From Verpa conica (taxonomy: Eukaryota; Ascomycota; Pezizomycetes; Pezizales; Morchellaceae): a DNA stretch of 64,000 bases. The position numbers were made by a program, and so were the translations under genes. Under the pieces are notes generated by a model. It ran no database searches. It was given only the letters and a program-made list of their open reading frames with translations, and had not been told where the DNA came from. Location of the stretch: contig JAUFSD010000005.1 in the NCBI GenBank assembly GCA_033030425.1, positions 1,911,001 through 1,975,000 of the forward strand, given 5' to 3'. Positions 29,357 through 58,054 of the stretch are shown here, piece after piece; the stretch's first letter is position 1; each line of letters begins with the position of its first letter.

Positions 29357-32300
29357 TCATGCCGTTACCAACAGCATATATGTTCCGTCCAATTCTCCTT
29401 TAGCTAGCTTTGTGTCGGGATGTTCGGCCCCTAGCCTCTTTAACCGTACCTCATATACCTTCCTTTCTAATACCTCAGCCTCTTTAAAACGATCCTGAGA
29501 GGCATAAATTATCGCTAGGTTGGCCATAGCTACGAGGGTTTCCAAACTCTCCTCCCCTAGCACTTTCTGCCTTCCATCCACCACTTGTTGCTGTAGCTTC
29601 TCTGCATCTTTCCATCGTTCTTGCCCTCTGTAGGTTGTCGCTAGGGCTTCCATGGCTTTTAGGGAGAGTGTATACTCTTTGCCCTTCAAGTCTTTCCTGG
29701 CCTCCACCACTTTCAGCTGTAGATCCTCCGCCTTTTTAAACTGTTCTTGTCTATAGTAGATAAGTCCTAGGTTGGCTATAGCTGTTACCGTTTCTGAATG
29801 TTCCGTACTCCTCACTCTCTTATTTGCATCCACAACCAGTAGCTGCAGCTTTTCCGCATCTTTCCACCGCCCTAAGTCATTATGGATTCTCGCTAACCAA
29901 CTGAAGCCATCAGTCAATGATATGTCGGCCATCTCAGCGCTTAAGTATCTCCCAGCATTAGCGCCCACCACCTCTACGTGCGGTATGATCCTGTTCGCGT
30001 GCTCCCAGTAGTTGGGTGTTTTTTCGTATTTGCATGAGATCGCATTGCCAACTAGAACTGCGGCTTCGGCCGCTTTTTCGACACGTTCAAGACCTGTAAG
30101 GCGCTCGTGGGCCCATAGATGGACCATAGGGTTGATATAGAAGCTTTCTTCACGTCCTTTACGTTGGATCAAGGAATATGAAAATAGAAGCTTCAGCGAA
30201 TCGTGTAATGTGATATCTGTTCAGAAGGCTCATTAGTTTAGTCAATACTCATCTAGGCCTTGAACATACCATCATCCTCAAGCTTCTTCCCACGACGTAA
30301 CATGTCCTCTTGAATGTCCTCATTAGACAAGAACGAACACAATGATAGCAGCTCTGCAGCATTTGTATCCCCCCTTTTCACTGCTTGAAACGAGATGTCC
30401 CAGGTGGTGAAGATCGTATGAGCCCCATCACTAAAATCAAAATGTGATGGTTTTTCGCTCAAAACTTTAGCATAGTGTTTGTCGAAGATATCTCGGTATC
30501 TTTTCAGCTGCATCTTACGAGACCCGATGTAGGCCCCCGCTTGGATGATAGCAAGAGGTAATCCTCCAAGCTTCTTGATGACCTCTTCCGCCATAGGGTC
30601 TATAATTTTCGTTAGCCAAGATACTGTAAAGGATATATCGGGGCCAGACTTGCCTCGAACTTTCGGATCAAGGTCCAATTGTGCACTCTTTAGAAGAAGT
30701 TCTACAGCTTCTGTATTATTCATCTCTGTTACCTGCAAAGGCGTACCGAAATTGCCACATTCGGGTCTCCTGCTTGTCATTATGATTGTACCATGCGAAA
30801 CCGATGGGAGGAATTGCGCTATCCCAAAGTCCAGATCGTCAACGCGGTCGAAAACAATAAGCCAACTCTGATTCTTCTCCCTAGCAAGCCATAGCTTCAC
30901 CCCTTGAACAATGCAATCGTGGTACTCTTCTTTAAGAGAGACACGTCCTTGGTCATCAACCGCATCTGCCATATCAAGCTCCTTTGCTATCAAATGATAG
31001 TTAGGTCTCTCCTCATGTGAGTTTTTTGCATACTGCTTTATCAGGCGTTGGGCCGCCTTTCTGAACCCAAGTATTGTGGTCTGTTTGGTGGTTGCGTCGA
31101 TCCAGAAAATCGAATCATAATGACTCTTGTAGGTGTAAATATACTCCAAAGCGACCTGTGTTTTCCCAATGCCCCCAACCCCGTAAAGAACTACTGGTAC
31201 TGATTTCTTGTACCTTGTCTCTTCATTGATCTTATTTATTAGGTTTCGTCTGCCAGTGAATTGTTTGTTTTGCCCACGCTCCAGCTCAAAAGGAATCTCA
31301 AAGGTGATGTGCACGCCATTTGCTCGAGCGGCTTATTGAGGTTAGCAACCGTGAAAACTTCACTTGGGGTTCTTATCTTTGAATACCTTCAACTCTCCTC
31401 CAGTCCTTCCAGTTCTTTGAAGCCCTTCCTGGGGCCTCGTTCGACATTAAGAGGATACATAAAGAGACCTTCAGGTAATTCCCATCCTGGTCTGATTTGT
31501 ACTTTACGAGGTTTTCATGGTCACTATTAATCCCGAATACTTCGGCATCAGTAGCGCCTGGGACCACCGCAGAGTCCCTCGGTACAACCTTCGATATATT
31601 AGCTTCACTCCAGAGCAGTCACTTATCTTTGTAGACACTTACAAAACCGTTGACGTCACGTGACTGATACGTCTCATAGAAAAACTTTGTATCAAAGTGC
31701 TTACTGATATGGGTGTACTGCCCGATTTGTTTTTGAAGCGATTTTGAACCTCCCTTTAGACTCCGGTGGATAGCGTTGTTTGTATTTGTGAATATTGAAG
31801 CAGCACTGATAAAGATTTTTCCCCATGAGAGGCCAGATGTCCCTTGGTGAGGTGTGCCGAAGAAAAGGATGCCGGTGGTAGAGGTTTTGATTGCGTGATG
31901 GTGTTGTACGTTGTGTATATTGGCTGAGTTTGAGTGGATAAGCGCCTAAAGATTTACGTTAGAAAAGCTACACTAAGCAATGATTCTGTTTACAAACGCT
32001 AAGGGAGGATTTACATCTTTAACAATAATACCTCCTATGCTATGAGCAATAAAAATGATTGGCCGCTCGATTGTCTAGGCATGTAAGTATAATTCTGTCA
32101 ATCCTCTTAAGTGGAATATCTAGACCTACATTTGTCTTTTTTCTATAAAGGCTGAGATCTGTGACCAAGCCGACTGCGTGATCATGGAGTGTCTGACGAC
32201 TCAATGGTGTCGACCCACGAGTCCTGCCATCGTAGCCGTAGGTGAGGATACGGGCATTGGTGACTACCTTAGGAAGCCAATCACGAAGCCATAAGCCTCC

Positions 32301-43211: not shown

Positions 43212-43942
43212 CTAAGCACTCCCCGCCTTCTTGCCCGCTGGCTTCTTCGTTTCAAAACCTGGTAACGTAATCGGCTCCGACGAACCACTGGCGCCCCATG
43301 TCAGCGCGCCAACATGGGGTTGCACGTTCCAGTGGAATGTTAACGTGACATTTGTACGCTCCGCAACTTTGCCGGTAATGTCGTTGATTTTGTATTTTGG
43401 CTGTTTGTTCTTAAGGTTAAGTTTCGCCTTTGTAGAAGTCGTGATTATTCTGTCCCAGATTACGACTTCGTTCTCGGTCTGTGGGTAGGTTAGCTTGAGC
43501 TAAGCTCGGGGTAGGGCCGGGAGAGCATACATATTTCTTGCCGGGGTACGAGGCAGAGACGTAGACAAAGACTTGCTTGGTGTTCCAATTGAAGAGAGGT
43601 TTCAGGTCTGCTATGGAGTTAGCTTCTCTTCTGGATGGGGGTAGGGGGAGGTGGAAGCGTACCAACGTCAAGGTCGAAATTGATTGACGCAAACTCATGG
43701 GGCTTTGCCGAATGGTACTGTCGGACCCGGCCTTTCGATCTACGTGTAAAAAGTCAGTGTTTAACTCTTTAAACCCTTTCTGGTGACCTAACATACACTT
43801 TGAAGTTTGTAACATCGACATTTGCGACTGCTGGGTCTGTAGGGAACAGCACCACCGACAGAGCGACCAAAGACGCGACAACGAAAGCGACAGAGGTAAA
43901 GAAGCCGAAGACGTTCTGAACACGGACGAGTGATGAATGCAT
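43212..43942 (-). CDS. SPC3: Signal peptidase complex subunit 3
   Basis: The model is complement(join(43212..43478,43531..43610,43663..43739,43797..43942)), 189 aa; introns of 52, 52 and 57 bp. It starts MHSSLVRVQNVFGFFTSVAF, a signal anchor of about residues 10-33. The lumenal domain includes FASINFDLDV, LKPLFNWNTKQVFVYVSA, then NEVVIWDRII, KYKINDITGKV and LTFHWNVQPHVG, all family signatures. Spc3 is an essential single-pass subunit of the ER signal peptidase complex, positioning the Sec11 catalytic subunit. Length matches fungal orthologues. Short exons of 77 and 80 bp hide the gene from simple ORF inspection. Confidence 0.95.
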
Positions 43943-44705
43943 TTTGTTTATAGAGCTGGAGGTTCAGGCGGTGGTTATTGGGACATGGGGGTATTGGGTG
44001 TTTCGTGGTGTCGGGTTGTGGACACCGTCGTCAATTGTATTAGGTTGAGGCTCAAGGTTGTGAGGCGCTAGGCCGTTTTGGGATACCCTGTCTATGCAGG
44101 TGCAGCCGACTAACACAGGAGTTTGTACCCCAAAGCGGTTTTACTATGGAGATTTCATAACCTCTCTCCAGCATATCAGAAACCCTAGAAATGCCGCGCC
44201 CGGGACCTAGAACTATTACTTTTCTTATAGCTATAACCGTCGGCTGACCTTAACTATCTTTAAACACTACTTTGGACTGATTAGCTCATCTTTCAGGTAC
44301 CTCCGTGAATAATCCAGCGGTTTAGGTTTCTTGCTCAGGTCCTACTCTGGTAGAAATATTTAGAAGAGCTACCAACGGTACTTACAGTCCAATATTGTGC
44401 CCTGTCGATTAGATCACTACGTATATGACTGTAACATACATAAAGTACAATACTAGTAACGCCGAAGATCGTCACGACGCTTCTATACCTCCCTAAGTTT
44501 ATGACAAGCGGTAAATTGTTCTATTATAGTGCCTTAACGTGCCTAGGAGTAGGGTTTCCCTCGAAGTGGGCCCCATCTATTGATTTGTGCATTTCTTACT
44601 AAGCCCATAGAATGAGTGATTGTCTATGATCTACTGACTAAGCGCCAAGTCCTGCTGAGCCAACATCAGTTGCTCTCTCAAACTAGAACGACACATCCCC
44701 CAGAA
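43943..44705. other. Upstream region of SPC3 and of the tandem array
   Basis: No gene seen. SPC3 is transcribed away from this interval, while the first array gene is transcribed in the other direction, so it may hold both promoters. Confidence 0.4.
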
Positions 44706-45182
44706 ATGCCTGATCAGAAGTTTGAATCTATAGTTTGCCCTACACCTTTTTCTGTAAGTACACTCAATATGCAAGTGCCGGCAAGAACTTTCGGGCTAAA
44801 CTTAGTGAACCTACCAGCGACCCACCCCTGATCCGGACATTCGGATACTATGTCCAGAGCCTGGTCTGGTAAAGATACTGAGGTATAGGTCGTCCTACAA
44901 TTTTTACCATCCAACGCTGTGCCCTGATGATGAGGTCGATACTTGGAATGTTCGTATCTCCCTAATAATTCGTACCTCCATAGTATGTGATGGAGAATTT
45001 ATCCCCTCAGGCTTGCTCACTATAAGTCATATTAGAGGCTAGAGAGAACACTTCAAGCAGTTTTTCCGGGTTGCGAGACAGATATCACGGTTTACTCACT
45101 CGATTGGTCAGTGATACCCAAGCAGTTTTGGAGTAAAGTCTTCGCAGCTACAACTACCAAAATATTCATTGTAAGATGTTAA
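44706..45182 (+). CDS. Tandem small-protein family, member A
   Basis: Proposed join(44706..44753,44818..44949,45036..45182), 108 aa. Exon 1 is MPDQKFESIVCPTPFS followed by GTAAGT. Exon 2 includes LCPEPGLVKIL and ends DDEVDTWN at a GTTCGT donor. Exon 3 begins RLERTLQAVFPGC and includes SVIPKQFWSKVFAATTTKIF. The same three-exon plan, phase-0 introns and motifs recur in members B-E. The order (strand, conserved Cys-Pro and Trp before a helix, Tyr/Ser-Asp strand, IP-x2-FW, final hydrophobic strand) is reminiscent of beta-grasp ubiquitin-like domains on some fungal STAND proteins; this is a weak inference. I do not recognise the family. Confidence 0.55.
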
Positions 45183-45901
45183 ACCAGATAAAGATATAAG
45201 GTCTTGTAAGAAGCCATCTCTAGTTGATATATTGCCCGCAAACTCACAAGACATATTTCAGTAGCGTAGAATATCTCAAGGCAGCGCGAATGGTCTGGAA
45301 ATGGAGTTCGGCTCGGCTAGCTAGTTGGAATACTAAGATAATATATACCTCCCTTTTAACTACCAACTAGATTAATCGTATATTTGATTGTGATGAATTC
45401 AATAAAATGCCTGATGAACTACCTAGCTATCTGCCTTAGAGCATTGGCTTAATACTAGATGCCAAACTCTTGCCGGGAGCAGCCCTTTTGTTGTCTGTGG
45501 CCCATGAGACACATGTGGATTATCTCTACCGCCATCATGGCTATATCGCATCCATATAACAACGACCGAATAACCAGGGGACGCCTTCAGATATAGTTCT
45601 CAGAAATTCAGTGTTTGATGGAGACTTGTAACCCTAACCCATATCACTCAAGTTGATTTGCACTTGATTACGCATATATATGCACCTACACTAGCTAAAA
45701 GAATACTACTAAGCGATTTTTTACTACTCTTGGGTTACCATCACTGATCAAGCTTATTACAAGAATTTATGTAAATGAATGGTTGCCGATGAATCCTTAG
45801 CTTACATAATTCAACTGAGTGCCAGCATGACAAACTCGCTTATTCAGGCCAGCCACTTTCAGCACATCATTCTCTCTCCGACAGTCTCAACTTTTACAGC
45901 A

Positions 45902-46374
45902 ATGGTTTACCCAGTGGTTTCAACTATTGTTTGTCCTACATATATAAGTGTAAGTCGCTTCTATAATATTTTTATGTTAGTTTTCGCTCGGAACAATCTA
46001 GGCTGATTCATCATACTTATTAGGGGACTCCTCCCAAAGATCCGGAGATCATGATACCTTGCCCAGATCCCGGTCTTGTCAAGATACTTGTCGTAGGGAG
46101 CTCTAGTAGTTGGTATCACCCAAGGCTCTGTCCAGTGGAAGAGGTTAATACATGGACTGTTCGTATAGTCTTAATTATCTGCGCCTCCTAAGGTACGAAG
46201 AGTTATAAACTAATGGTAGTAAAGAAGTTCGAGAAAACAGTGCGTATGATTTTTCCAGACTGCAAGCCGAACATCAAAGTCTTTTCATCCGACAAGTCTG
46301 TCATCCCCAAAGAGTTTTGGGACAAAGTCTTTGCGACTCTTGTTATTAAAGTATTTGTTGTGGAATGGTGGTGA
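45902..46374 (+). CDS. Tandem small-protein family, member B
   Basis: Proposed join(45902..45949,46024..46158,46225..46374), 110 aa, with introns of 74 and 66 bp. Exon 1 is MVYPVVSTIVCPTYIS then GTAAGT, the same 16-codon length as in member A. Exon 2 has IPCPDPGLVKIL and ends VEEVNTWT at GTTCGT. Exon 3 has KFEKTVRMIFPDC and SVIPKEFWDKVFATLVIKVF. An upstream in-frame ATG at 45779 would add 41 residues. No stop interrupts any exon. About 1.2 kb downstream of member A in the same orientation. Confidence 0.55.
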
Positions 46375-47002
46375 TGCGTACGTAGCAGAATGTATTCTTG
46401 TAACGTTACTTTTCTAGACCTTACTCTATTTTTACTGAATTAACGAGTCTAGCACTTGTGGCTTTAGTTGTTTTTTAGAAAATACGAGTAGTCAACAAAT
46501 CACCCAACCTTGGTTTTGCTGAGGAAATTTGATAACTATGTTAATATACATATATATTTATGCAATGCCTGTCGCTCCCTCGATTAAGGGTGTCCAATGG
46601 AGAATCAAGTTGATGATTTAATGAATAATTTTGCTATTCCCCTTAATTTATGATGTAATTCGTTGCTCCTAGCTTTTGTAGGGATCTAAGGAACAGCTAA
46701 TACGTCATTCGGTCTAGAATTCTACTTCATAGATTATCCCATAGGGAATCCTATTCTATATATACCTGGGGATTATGCAATTAACTACTAGCTTATTTTC
46801 TGTCAGCAGTTAATCTATGCTTTGCTACTGGGAGATTGCCTCAAAAAGATAGGAGCTCATTGATAAGCTGGGTTGTGCTTAACATTAGTAAATGTGCTTA
46901 AATCTCTTCATTAGGCCCACCTTTCTATATAGTATTACAAGCTCTGGGATGTAAGGCTATATATTTATAATAAATAATCTACGCTAAAACGAAAGGGTCC
47001 CG

Positions 47003-47251
47003 TATCCCTTACGCTGGAAAAGCTGACCCTCCCAAGTGGGGGCCGGGTCTTTCTACTGGACATGTTTAGACCACCAACTAGATATGGCAGGTATGATATA
47101 TTAAACGTAGAGAACTGATGGTTTTGGTATAACTGTTCACGGCCAGCCCAAGACAGAGACCTACGTTACCGGCGTTTAATAGATCATGCCTACTACACCA
47201 TAACTTTGGCCCCCACTAGGGGGTCAGCATTTTTTGACAGCGTAAGGGATA
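47003..47251. mobile_element. MITE-like element (TATCCC ends), second copy type
   Basis: TATCCCTTACGCTG at 47003 is inverted at the right end (CAGCGTAAGGGATA, ending 47251). Arms of about 50 bp contain GCTGACCC and GTGGGGGCC. Ends and arm motifs match the element at 28299-28445. It sits between array members B and C. Confidence 0.65.
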
Positions 47252-47659
47252 CATACTAATCACAGCTCAGAGACGGTAATAACCCTAACCCTTACATTGG
47301 GAACCCTAGCCCATATAAGCCTGATGCTTATCTGATTAGATCCACTGTCTACCATGTGATAATGAAGGTATGGATAGCAGCACCCCTAGCCCAAACACCG
47401 GACACCAGACATCAATCGGTCGGCGGTCATAGAATACCTTAGGCTTCTACCTAGGGCTAAACCGGGTAAATATTTAGTAAAAAATCTCATTTCAGAAATA
47501 TCTGTGGCTAAGCAGACTCGTTAAAGTTCTGTAGCTAATGTCCAATCAATCTTTCTGGGAGATCTTTCTTAATCGAGTGGCGCGCATAATCGGAAAGCTT
47601 GGGTTTGATTATATGTTTTCTCAACGACCCCGCTCCTTATTCAAGACACGAACTAAATG

Positions 47660-48159
47660 ATGCAGAACTCTCTAGAGATAAATCGCACAAGGGTAGAATA
47701 TCTCACTTCCCCTTATAAATACGTACGTTAGTCAATCCTACTTATTGACCTGGTGCCTATCTTCCCGTGGGACTGGCTTTGGCTTACTCTAGCATTCACT
47801 AGAATCCCGACACTGGCACGGGGCTTGAAATACGCTGCCCAGATCCGGGTCTAGTAAAAATACTCAGGAAACCCTGGACCCCGAGATTGTGTCATGTTGA
47901 TGAAGTTGATAATTGGAATGTTCGTGATGCATAGCTAGACACCTTCTGGGGTGCAAAGAGAGGGATATATAGGAGGGCTAAATTAAGTTCTGCGGCTAAC
48001 CACCAATCATAGAAGTTAGAGAGTACCGTACATATAATGTTTCCGGATTACCCTACTCCGCTCACCAGAATATATTCATTTGATGGATGTGTAATCCACA
48101 AACAATTTTGGGAAAAGGTCTTGATCACCACAACAGTCAGGATATTTTCCTTGGAATAA
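47660..48159 (+). CDS. Tandem small-protein family, member C
   Basis: Proposed join(47660..47722,47803..47919,48013..48159), 108 aa, with introns of 80 and 93 bp. Exon 1 runs MQNSLEINRTRVEYL to KY at a GTACGT donor. Exon 2 contains RCPDPGLVKIL and ends VDEVDNWN at GTTCGT. Exon 3 begins KLESTVHIMFPD and contains CVIHKQFWEKVLITTTVRIF. Members C and D are the closest pair and share sequence outside the exons too (compare 47570-47640 with 48840-48920), so they come from a segmental duplication of about 1.3 kb. Confidence 0.55.
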
Positions 48160-48940
48160 AGCGAGTGTAGGGAGGTTTTAAGAACTCAGATGTAACCTAT
48201 TCTAAGACAACAAGCTTTATTAGGAACATAGATCTATCACAGTACCTTCTATAAGATCAGTGGTCAGCCTAGTAAATATCTTTAGGGTGAATGAAGTAAG
48301 TAGCGTAATAGGGCTGCTATGTTGTGTCTGTTCGACTAAACGATACTTACACGGAGCGTAGCATAACTTATTCCAAAGCCTACTGAATCATCAACTCACT
48401 AAAGTAGAGGGAACACGTTTAAATAGTGGCTAATTTAGTGATACATTTACGGAGCTCTATTCAGTGTTGGATTTAGTTTTCCGAGTAGTATTGCTCAGGT
48501 GTAGTTGGACAAATTTCGAGTTATGACACCTGATTTCTCTGTAATCCACCAGAGTTTTGAATGAGAATCTCGGCCTAGTAAAATCTGGAGAACGTCCTTT
48601 ATCTAGTGTAATTACTAGAAGGGAATTCCTGGAATAATTTGGGAGCACTCGGTTTACTTGTAGCCAGATCGATCTACTCAAATCATTTGAAGATATTCAC
48701 TCGACAAACTAATCATATAACATTGCAGATAACTTAAGTTCGATATTAACGCCTAAAAAGGCGAGAAATATTTCCGCTACTTTTAATATATTGAAAATTA
48801 AGGCCGCCCAGGGTCTAGCTTCTGTCTAATCAGGCTGGGTAATCTTTCCAAATCGGGTGACACGCATAATCAGAAGGCTTGGGTGTCATATATCTTCTCA
48901 ACTACCCCACTCCCTTTCCTAAGCACGAACTACAGGTTTG

Positions 48941-49410
48941 ATGATAGAGAGCATTCCACCGATGTCTTCTACAAGGGTCGAAACTCTTGTCTTTCCTCCA
49001 GTTGATTATGTTAGTTAATCCTACCTAGTCGCCTGCTGTCTACCCCTATGTGTACGTTTTTGGCTAACTTCAGTGTAACTATTAGGCGGCAAACAGAGAC
49101 TCAGGGGTCAAAATGGCCTGTCCAGGCCCCCATCTAGTAAAAATACTCAAGAAGGGCTGCTACCCGAGACTGCACCACGTGAATGAGGTTGATACTTGGA
49201 GTGTTCGTGACACCTAAATCCATTAGATAGAGGGAAGCCAGGGCGTATTCTACGGCTAACTATCAAGTTTAGAAGCTAGAGAGTACTGTGCGCGTATCTG
49301 TGGGCCATACTTTGGGTAGGATTTTATCATACGATGGGTGTGTAATTCACAAAGACTCTTGGGAAAAGGTCCTTGCTGCCACCGCTATCAACATATTTGT
49401 TTTGGAATAG
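48941..49410 (+). CDS. Tandem small-protein family, member D
   Basis: Proposed join(48941..49009,49086..49202,49273..49410), 107 aa, with introns of 76 and 70 bp. Exon 1 runs MIESIPPMSSTRVETL to VDY at a GTTAGT donor. Exon 2 contains ACPGPHLVKIL and ends VNEVDTWS at GTTCGT. Exon 3 begins KLESTVRVSVGH, with CVIHKDSWEKVLAATAINIF. The IP-x2-F of members A and B is changed to IHKDSW, and the FPD motif is lost, so D may be diverging or decaying even though its frame is open. Confidence 0.5.
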
Positions 49411-50555
49411 AATGAGTCAGTGAGGGAGGGGACTAAATCTACATAGTTTCTTAAATTCATATACTGGCGATTTTCATGACATATCTCTGCGTGAATATCT
49501 CTGGTAATTCCTCGTCCTTATCTACGCATACCTATCTATAGACATAATACACGGGTTTTCAGGAGCTAAGAGGCAGAATTATGCGCTTAAATACCCATAA
49601 ATAATCACCACAGGATTTACCGGGCTTGTGATGAAGATGCGGATGTGTTTAGTTCCAAGTATTCAACATCACCTATCTTTAGATTATGCCTAGTGTTGTA
49701 TTCCGGTGTATGTTAGAAGGCGTGTATATATTACCTAAGTAGGAGTAAGTCAACATTCGATTAGGAGATAAGTCGTATAGGTCTTGAAATATGATCTATA
49801 ATCTAGCAAAGGTAAGACTCGACTTACTGGAATATAATAGAGTGGCTCCTCCTGAAGACCGATTATATTCTAGCGTAGCTGTAACTTAAGTACGGACATT
49901 CCCTAGGTGTAATGTTATTAATTATTTTAGCCTTTTCCTTTTGGATGCCTTATAGAATCTATAAATAATATAATAGACGGTAGTTTGAATTATCCAACCA
50001 GGAATTATTCGCTCACTTGGGGAGCTTAATTTGTTTGGTGGTGGGGTATATGCCGGCCGTGCTAGTATATATTAATATCATGGAATATTTGATACCAGGA
50101 TGCTTAGTGTATTATTCAGGACATCATAGGTAATTATCAGCATGGTAGTATTAAACATCCTTAGAGATGGCATATATTTGATCCCGCAAGAGCCTCTATT
50201 CCGTAGCTATAGACTTATGGTTGTAACTTTTTAATCTAAAATAATGCATATATACTTTATGTTATTAAAAGAGGCCTTATAATCTAAGGTAAATTTACCA
50301 AGCGAGTTGCTTGTGGAGCCACGCTCTCCATTTTCAGTTGTTTAGTACACCTTTACGGTGCCAGAAGGTATTTACGATTGTTTATCTAGAAAATAGGTCA
50401 CAAGTTTCCTATATAGGTGCCCTGCATACTAGTTGGGATGATTGGAAGTGTCATTTTTAGGCCGCCTACCTTTGTCTATATATGTACCCCTCTTTTTGTG
50501 TCACAGCCACTCCCTTAGTAATAACACCATCATAAAACTGTAAACTCCTTCTCAG

Positions 50556-51205
50556 GTGCTCTCAACGCACAACCTCCTCAAGAAACGCCCAGTGCCCTTA
50601 CGTTCATCGAACCAGCTCATATCCCTCAAATCTTCTTCTCGGGATTTCCTTTGCCCTACAACCCCGAGAACAGGGAGGTCACTCTTGTCATAGTATGATC
50701 GAGACTGGAGCAGTGGTTAGTTCCCCGAGTAGCTACGAATCTATCTCATGCTGATACATATACCTGACCAGGTACAACGACCAGCTACAATGTCCAGCAT
50801 CGATACTTCAATGACTGGTCTCGTAACACTGATTGAGGTTAAAGGAGACCGTGAAATAGGGAGGTCAATACTCTGTCCTTTTAATGAGATGGACACTTAC
50901 GAAGTACGTAAAACTCACTATATACCATCGGCACGTACGTACGTTAGCCGAGGTACCCCCCCGGATTTATTATTAACCGAGTAATATATATATATTAGAG
51001 GCTCGAGAAAACCTTGCTGCTACTTTTTCCGACAAAGGTTACTCATACTTATCTAGGCAATGGTGATCAATATAAAACGGATATTCGGAGTTTTCGAATG
51101 ATGACGAATTCTTGGGTAGTAATCCCTAAACAGTTTTGGGGGAGGATCTCCGCCCAGCAGACCGTGAAAACATTCCGCGTTGAGTTTGATCCCCCTCAAA
51201 CTTAA
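50556..51205 (+). CDS. Tandem small-protein family, member E (start not found)
   Basis: Proposed exons 50556..50692, 50772..50903 and 50999..51205. The first shown exon lacks an ATG and is Pro/Gln-rich (PPQETPSALTF) ending NREVTLVI at a GTATGA donor, so an earlier exon must hold the start. Exon 2 contains TGLVTLIEV and ends ILCPFNEMDTYE at a GTACGT donor. Exon 3 begins RLEKTLLLLFP and contains VVIPKQFWGRI, with an insertion of about 15 residues before it and a longer tail. It is the most divergent member. The second exon length (44 codons) equals that of member A. Confidence 0.45.
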
Positions 51206-56917: not shown

Positions 56918-58054
56918 CTAATACTGAAACAATATCTCAGGATACTCATCCACCGGCCCATCAAAAAGCCCATCATCCAAACCCCACAACAAAAACCCAA
57001 AGAAAGCCCTAACATACCCCCTCTGCACCGCAATCGCCCTAATACCATCAATAGCACCGACCGCCGCATCAACCACATCCTTCGGCAACACATCCCTCAC
57101 ATTAAATATTTCAAAAAGCGCCGGAATATCACTATACGTCAGATGCTGCGAATCCGCAAGCACCAGTGCTTTTTTCCACCCTTGAAGCTTCGCCCACAGC
57201 ACACCCCACGTCGGGTCCGAAGTGAGGTTATGCACGGGGGTACCCATCAGGACCAATGGTTTATCCAAGTTGTTATTACCAACGTCACGGAATGCCGCGC
57301 CGTCCATGTCGAGACCGCCTTTGATTCTGGAGTCGCCGTAGACGATCAATGTGGTTGTTGCGCCGCCGAAGGAGTGGCCGAACATGCCGATGTTTTCGAT
57401 ACTCAGCCATCTACTCGCCGCGGGGATGCTCTGGGTGATGTTTGTGGAGAGAAGGTCTAGTGTGTATTTAACATCGTCCAAGCGGAGGTTTTGGAGTATT
57501 GTGAATGCGGATGGGTTGGTTATGTTGATGGTTGGGTTTGAGAGTATTATGTTTCCGGTGGATGGGAACTCGACGATTGCTGAGTCGTAGGGGTGGTCGA
57601 TTGTGATTACGATGTAGCCGTGGGAGGCGAGGTCTTCGAGGAAGGTGGTGTACAGGTGCCGGGAGGCGCCGTAGCCGTGGGAAAAGATGATTGCTTGGGA
57701 TTTGAGCGTGGGGAACATGGGTGCGTTGGTGCGTGAGTTGGATGTGAGCGTGCTGAGGGTGCCTGTGGTGAGGTTGAGTTTGTCTTCCCAGACTTGCGCG
57801 GTGGCGGGGGTCATGTATGGTGTGAGAGGGTGGGCGTAGGTGAGTATTGAGGGGTAGTATACGGAGATCATGAAGGAGCGGGGGCCTGGGTTGGAGGGGT
57901 CTGCTGCGAAGGGGTTGGTGCGGGAGTAGTCGTTGAGTTCGAGGTCTATGGTGCCGACTCTGTAGATGCCAGTGAGGGCTGGTAGGGAGAGTGCATTGAT
58001 GGCATCTTTGAGTAGTAAGCTGAAGAGAATAGTTAAGGTAAACGTATTGATCAT
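56918..58054 (-). CDS. Secreted PAF-acetylhydrolase-like lipase/esterase
   Basis: A single open frame of 378 aa. A signal peptide covers about 1-21 (MINTFTLTILFSLLLKDAI). It is an alpha/beta-hydrolase of the platelet-activating-factor acetylhydrolase group: the oxyanion region IIFSHGYGASRHLY (about 122-135), HGYIVITIDHPYDSA, the nucleophile elbow GHSFGGATT with Ser about 228, the acid in GGLDMDGA (about 249-251) and the His in DSQHLTYSD (about 304). The triad is complete. Several N-x-S/T sites fit a secreted glycoprotein. Family enzymes cleave short or oxidised acyl groups from phospholipids or related esters; the natural substrate is unknown. No intron is needed. Length is typical. Confidence 0.88.
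   Translation of the reverse strand: MINTFTLTILFSLLLKDAINALSLPALTGIYRVGTIDLELNDYSRTNPFAADPSNPGPRSFMISVYYPSILTYAHPLTPYMTPATAQVWEDKLNLTTGTLSTLTSNSRTNAPMFPTLKSQAIIFSHGYGASRHLYTTFLEDLASHGYIVITIDHPYDSAIVEFPSTGNIILSNPTINITNPSAFTILQNLRLDDVKYTLDLLSTNITQSIPAASRWLSIENIGMFGHSFGGATTTLIVYGDSRIKGGLDMDGAAFRDVGNNNLDKPLVLMGTPVHNLTSDPTWGVLWAKLQGWKKALVLADSQHLTYSDIPALFEIFNVRDVLPKDVVDAAVGAIDGIRAIAVQRGYVRAFFGFLLWGLDDGLFDGPVDEYPEILFQY

Follow-up and report, generated by a model that had tools for sequence, protein, structure and literature searches.

A predicted tandem array of five small three-exon genes in Verpa conica whose products appear distantly related to ULD_2, a ubiquitin-like domain of fungi

In Verpa conica, positions 44,706-51,205 of a 64,000-nucleotide stretch (the window; GenBank assembly GCA_033030425.1, contig JAUFSD010000005.1, positions 1,911,001 to 1,975,000 of the forward strand) look empty when judged by long open reading frames (ORFs), which raises the question of whether this interval carries genes and, if so, of which family. 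A sequence-only reading had proposed a hidden tandem array of five genes (copies A to E) sharing a three-exon plan; reading of the three frames combined with GT-AG joining confirmed the five copies, their places and their common exon plan. The array probably consists of five selected small protein-coding genes, with one relic copy beside them, that are related to ULD_2 (PF22893), and the predicted proteins look like remote relatives of this fungal ubiquitin-like domain. The gene models A-E, which are predictions from the sequence alone, and the features that accompany them are as follows.

44314..44424, + strand, sixth copy, decayed exon-2 relic with two in-frame stops
44706..44753, + strand, copy A exon 1, open, phase 0, donor GTAAGT
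44818..44949, + strand, copy A exon 2, AG acceptor, donor GTTCGT
45036..45182, + strand, copy A exon 3 with stop
45902..45949, + strand, copy B exon 1, donor GTAAGT
46024..46158, + strand, copy B exon 2, donor GTTCGT
46225..46374, + strand, copy B exon 3 with stop
47548..47655, + strand, copy C 5' block, putative promoter/5' leader, repeat families D8 and D9
47657..47722, + strand, copy C exon 1, donor GTACGT
47803..47919, + strand, copy C exon 2, donor GTTCGT
48013..48159, + strand, copy C exon 3 with stop
48828..48932, + strand, copy D 5' block, putative promoter/5' leader, repeat families D8 and D9
48941..49009, + strand, copy D exon 1, donor GTTAGT
49086..49202, + strand, copy D exon 2, donor GTTCGT
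49273..49410, + strand, copy D exon 3 with stop
50695..50715, + strand, tentative copy E exon 1 of 7 codons, followed by a 56-nt intron with donor GTTAGT
50772..50903, + strand, copy E exon 2, donor GTACGT
50999..51205, + strand, copy E exon 3 with stop

As had been claimed, the exons of all five copies are stop-free and all introns are in phase 0 for every join used; each intron also runs from GT to AG. Exon 2 has 44, 45, 39, 39 and 44 codons in A-E and exon 3 has 48, 49, 48, 45 and 68 codons before the stop; introns 1 and 2 measure 64 and 86 nt in A, 74 and 66 in B, 80 and 93 in C, 76 and 70 in D, and 56 and 95 in E. The proposed length of about 108 residues holds for copies A (108 aa), B (110 aa), C (109 aa) and D (107 aa), while the copy E protein has 112 aa without exon 1 and 119 aa with the tentative 7-residue exon 1. 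The motifs of exons 2 and 3 are also as described: CPxPxLVKIL is found in exon 2 of A-D and partly kept in E, the residues before the second donor are DxW[NST] (NTWT in B, DTYE in E), and exon 3 starts with [KR][LF]E[SKR]T and contains VI[PH]KxxW in all five copies. The unusual second donor GTTCGT was found in A-D as stated, with GTACGT in E, but it follows the codon after the Trp codon rather than the Trp codon itself. Part of exon 3 recurs as a direct repeat in all five copies, and part of exon 2 does so in A-D as well as in the relic; the relic retains the exon-2 pattern (profile score 29.2, expectation value (E) 3.9e-8), is matched weakly by the copy B protein (E 6.8e-4), and no exon 3 was found for it. 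The C and D blocks, each of roughly 105 bp and lying immediately before the ATG, are 77-78% identical to each other and may represent a shared promoter.

Retention of open frames in diverged copies had been put forward as a sign of past or present selection, to be checked by the ratio of nonsynonymous to synonymous substitution rates (dN/dS) among the spliced copies, with values near 1 counting against it; the values obtained were below 1 and support the proposal. For exons 2 and 3 of copies A-D, dN/dS was 0.18-0.38 by NG86 and 0.39-0.59 by YN00 (five A-D pairs), and the GY+F3X4 codon model gave an omega of 0.33 with a kappa of 2.6. Fixing omega at 1 lost 18.3 log-likelihood units for A-D with the best kappa tried (twice the log-likelihood difference, 36.7) and 20.4 units when E was added (40.9); these codon-model estimates are averages over sites. 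Differences at codon positions 1, 2 and 3 numbered 27, 27 and 51 between A and B and 29, 23 and 37 between C and D, and the 95% bootstrap limits of the ratio of nonsynonymous to synonymous differences per site (pN/pS) stayed under 1 for every one of the 10 pairs except D-E. In a neutral simulation of copies A-D by substitutions only, without indels, the probability of remaining stop-free at 0.27 substitutions per site per branch (about the A-B distance) was 0.084 per copy, or about 5e-5 for four independent copies. Copies A and B are 61-63% identical in exons 2 and 3, 48-58% in introns and 40-49% in flanks. These results show copies A-D, as modelled, to have been under purifying selection since they split, whether in the past or at present.

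The family had been left unrecognised; here, the array could be tied to ULD_2 through the profile of a bridging Pezizales subfamily and through an identical intron position and phase. The likeness to ULD_2 was examined with the PF22893 profile. A search of the V. conica genome with this profile gave 16 matches, grouped into 10 loci, and across 78% of its length one of these domains shows full identity to a protein of Morchella conica. Another (L030; G000 C25:116493-116946, - strand, or C25:116.5 kb), which represents the bridging subfamily, passes the Pfam ULD_2 cut-off when scanned alone (27.0 vs 24.5 bits), has a reading frame of at least 527 aa that includes a long tail, and matched only itself within the genome. 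Eleven database proteins of 445-689 aa match L030 at E < 1e-20, with relatives in Rhizina undulata (81% identity over the domain region), Morchella sextelata (84%), Geopyxis carbonaria, Terfezia claveryi and Tirmania nivea; the relatives listed carry no precomputed Pfam domain. In hhalign, the five-copy array aligned with the L030 subfamily at a probability of 85% (score 35.9) and with a mixed ULD_2 set at 88% (score 36.2), and in each case all 200 column shuffles stayed below the score (maxima 25.3 and 19.3, respectively); the reversed array scored 11. A set of 128 ULD_2 domains with L030 added gave a probability of 49% and a score of 27.3, which was reached by 0 of 300 column shuffles (mean 10.7, standard deviation 2.0, maximum 19.4). 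Single-sequence comparisons with the array scored 28.3 for L030 and 19.2 for L021. With a ULD_2 hidden Markov model, the five copies received weak scores of 2.5 to -1.2 bits, compared with 23.2 for L030, the aligned stretches lying on the same conserved blocks.

The second line of evidence is the intron that splits the domain. A mid-domain, phase-0 intron was found at the same residue in all nine of this genome's ULD_2 domains whose two halves could be read, L029 being left out of the count because its upstream half is unclear; for L027, the acceptor was moved 9 nt upstream to a TTTAG with phase 0 retained. Residues before this intron include CKKWS, CRGWE, CRTWE and VETWD, and intron 2 of the array, likewise in phase 0, follows DTWN, NTWT, DNWN, DTWS and DTYE, that is, one residue past the W (Y in E), matching the ULD_2 intron in 9 of the 10 loci. 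When copies B and C were aligned by MAFFT with the intron retained, a gap opened exactly at the ULD_2 intron site. This phase-0 intron one residue past the W is a trait of ULD_2 in this genome and lies outside Pfam's definition of the domain.

Compared with the L030 subfamily, the array proteins share a core that can be aligned, starting ahead of the intron and reaching the W in the last conserved block, the intron itself, and V-[DEN]-[TN]-W before it in A-D and L030; they differ in being free-standing, tandem, about 108 aa long and below the Pfam threshold, and in having an extra 5' exon and intron. Classical ULD_2 domains, exemplified by G000 C23:886 kb and M. conica P167DRAFT_464273, have a similar helix and an I/V-I-x-x-x-x-W block, with the intron position and phase of the array in C23:886 kb, but by hand count they have about 7-8 residues more than A-C between the helix and the conserved W, the C23:886 kb domain lies within a longer frame, and their profile, when compared directly, matches the array marginally. 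Fungal intracellular receptors with a ubiquitin-clan domain may also be compared with the array; the array proteins differ from them in showing no Crinkler match in the Pfam scan and no recognised second domain.

The array was found at this locus only. Within the 45,838,881 bases (25 contigs) of the genome, copy C DNA matched only itself and D; among the protein queries, which were B, C and E, B matched A-D, the relic and one weak place on C23 (E 0.019, stop inside) judged to be a chance match, C matched A-D, and E matched itself and, weakly, A, so that no member of the family was found outside the locus with these queries. In a large protein database, with all five copies as queries, none of 296 candidates reached E <= 10. 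Likeness to a transposon protein, which the sequence-only reading had named as a point that would speak against it, was not seen: the array models had no Pfam match to a transposase or polymerase domain, and no dispersed copies were found in the genome with the above queries.

The array proteins have masses of 12-14 kDa, A-D contain 3-5 Cys, and the conserved segments are the acidic turn before the intron and VI[PH]KxxW. A weak AlphaFold structure model of copy B read through the in-frame intron 2, in which 22 foreign residues (46-67) were also folded, showed the exon-coded parts as strand-strand followed by helix-strand-strand-helix-strand at a predicted local distance difference test score (pLDDT) of 58.6. 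In a putative beta-grasp fold, the first two strands would come from exon 2, and the helix with the other strands from exon 3, the two parts being split by the intron that the ULD_2 domains of this genome carry there. Conjugated ubiquitin-like modifiers such as ubiquitin, SUMO and NEDD8 end in a C-terminal Gly-Gly, which is absent from all five models (ends IVRC, VEWW, FSLE, FVLE and PPQT in A-E); the array proteins are therefore unlikely to be conjugated. No strong N-terminal hydrophobic stretch was seen in the models (no signal-peptide predictor was run), and in the absence of an obvious signal peptide the proteins are unlikely to be secreted.

Regarding the surroundings of the array, the nearest scanned ORF upstream encodes a SPC22-like signal-peptidase subunit (43417-43923, - strand, E 1e-10) and could possibly serve as a synteny anchor. 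An NLR-type locus (29357-31314, - strand) comprises an NB-ARC ORF (30253-31314, E 9e-12) and an adjoining TPR_10/TPR_12 ORF (29357-30172), and a platelet-activating factor acetylhydrolase-like ORF is found at 56918-58054 (- strand, E 6e-19). Short interstitial CCCTAACCC-type telomere-like motifs occur between array copies, at about 45630 and 47280.

Several observations weigh against selected genes related to ULD_2. Some would fit a decaying family, formerly functional and now mostly pseudogenes, with open frames left over from past selection: the relic has stops, copy E has no firm first exon, the setting is AT-rich (GC 0.41 vs 0.45 for the window), and the pN/pS limits of D-E (0.61-1.08) include 1. 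In addition, C and D are 60-67% identical in introns and 66% in the upstream 200 bp, compared with 66-67% in exons 2 and 3; because introns and upstream sequence are as alike as exons in this pair, which has the lowest dS, the case for its selection is carried by the codon pattern by itself. Nevertheless, exons 2 and 3 are open and splice dinucleotides intact in all five copies, and the omega and the chance of stop-free survival given above make decay unlikely. Another reading takes the proteins for secreted effectors, or for polymorphic determinants of self and non-self, and not for adaptors in the cytosol. It could be suggested by their small size and divergence, the tandem arrangement, the 3-5 Cys of A-D and the NB-ARC ORF beside a TPR ORF about 13 kb from the array, but the lack of a strong N-terminal hydrophobic stretch (judged without a signal-peptide predictor) and selection that is, on average over sites (no site-wise test was run), purifying and not diversifying render this improbable.

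Other observations concern the relationship to ULD_2 itself. No array protein reached the Pfam ULD_2 cut-off (24.5 bits), and no ULD_2 match was listed at a maximum E of 10 for the five spliced models and four single exons, in a search in which the filters of HMMER remove the majority of hits weaker than about E 0.1. With 8 ULD_2 domains taken from this genome, the array aligned in register at a score of 22.6 (probability 14%, P 0.0019), and with 31 classical ULD_2 domains it scored 23.5 (18.6%), while the best of 94 window-ORF tiles, from an ankyrin-repeat ORF, scored 23.3; since the classical domains are unconvincing by themselves, the link is drawn from the bridging subfamily and the intron. 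The intron ends in the ULD_2 genes were placed by visual inspection without cDNA, at a point when the array pattern was already known. The structure model from array rows only had a pLDDT of 58.6, which rose to 66.7 with ULD_2 rows, and neither model had a significant PDB match. The missing ULD_2 hits in the Pfam scans, the lack of database relatives, the weak structure models and the tile score would fit a family that has no kinship with ULD_2 and is possibly new in this lineage, with a likeness due to convergence and a chance intron match. Given that none of the 200 shuffles reached the bridging-subfamily score of 36 and that intron residue and phase are identical in every readable ULD_2 domain, we consider this improbable. 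As the bridging subfamily and the intron position lead to a known domain, the orphan-looking array would reflect divergence beyond detection and not birth from nothing; as no copy reaches the Pfam threshold and the structure models are weak, its proteins are described as a diverged variant and not as formal ULD_2 members.

With the array taken as selected relatives of ULD_2, a gene for a free-standing, heavily diverged ULD_2 relative, which may have originated by release of a ULD_2 domain, would have given rise to the array by tandem duplication, and duplication with loop changes could have diversified a binding surface. The preferred mechanism, itself a tentative guess, is that the array proteins are cytosolic, non-conjugated binding modules that compete with, modulate or share partners of larger ULD_2 proteins. 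It seems an unlikely, more far-reaching extension that they form a lineage-restricted free-standing ubiquitin-like family, freed from a large ULD_2 protein and duplicated into antagonists or specificity partners, possibly in self/non-self recognition.

A search of one collection of papers for PF22893 yielded none. The array is real but hidden, its genes being too altered to be picked up by the usual gene and domain searches, and its proteins appear to be divergent forms of a domain already known from fungi and not a novel type. Gene finders may overlook similar arrays in other Pezizomycetes, given how short and divergent such exons are. If expressed, the array would offer a compact group of stand-alone ubiquitin-like proteins that could be deleted to probe the function of ULD_2.

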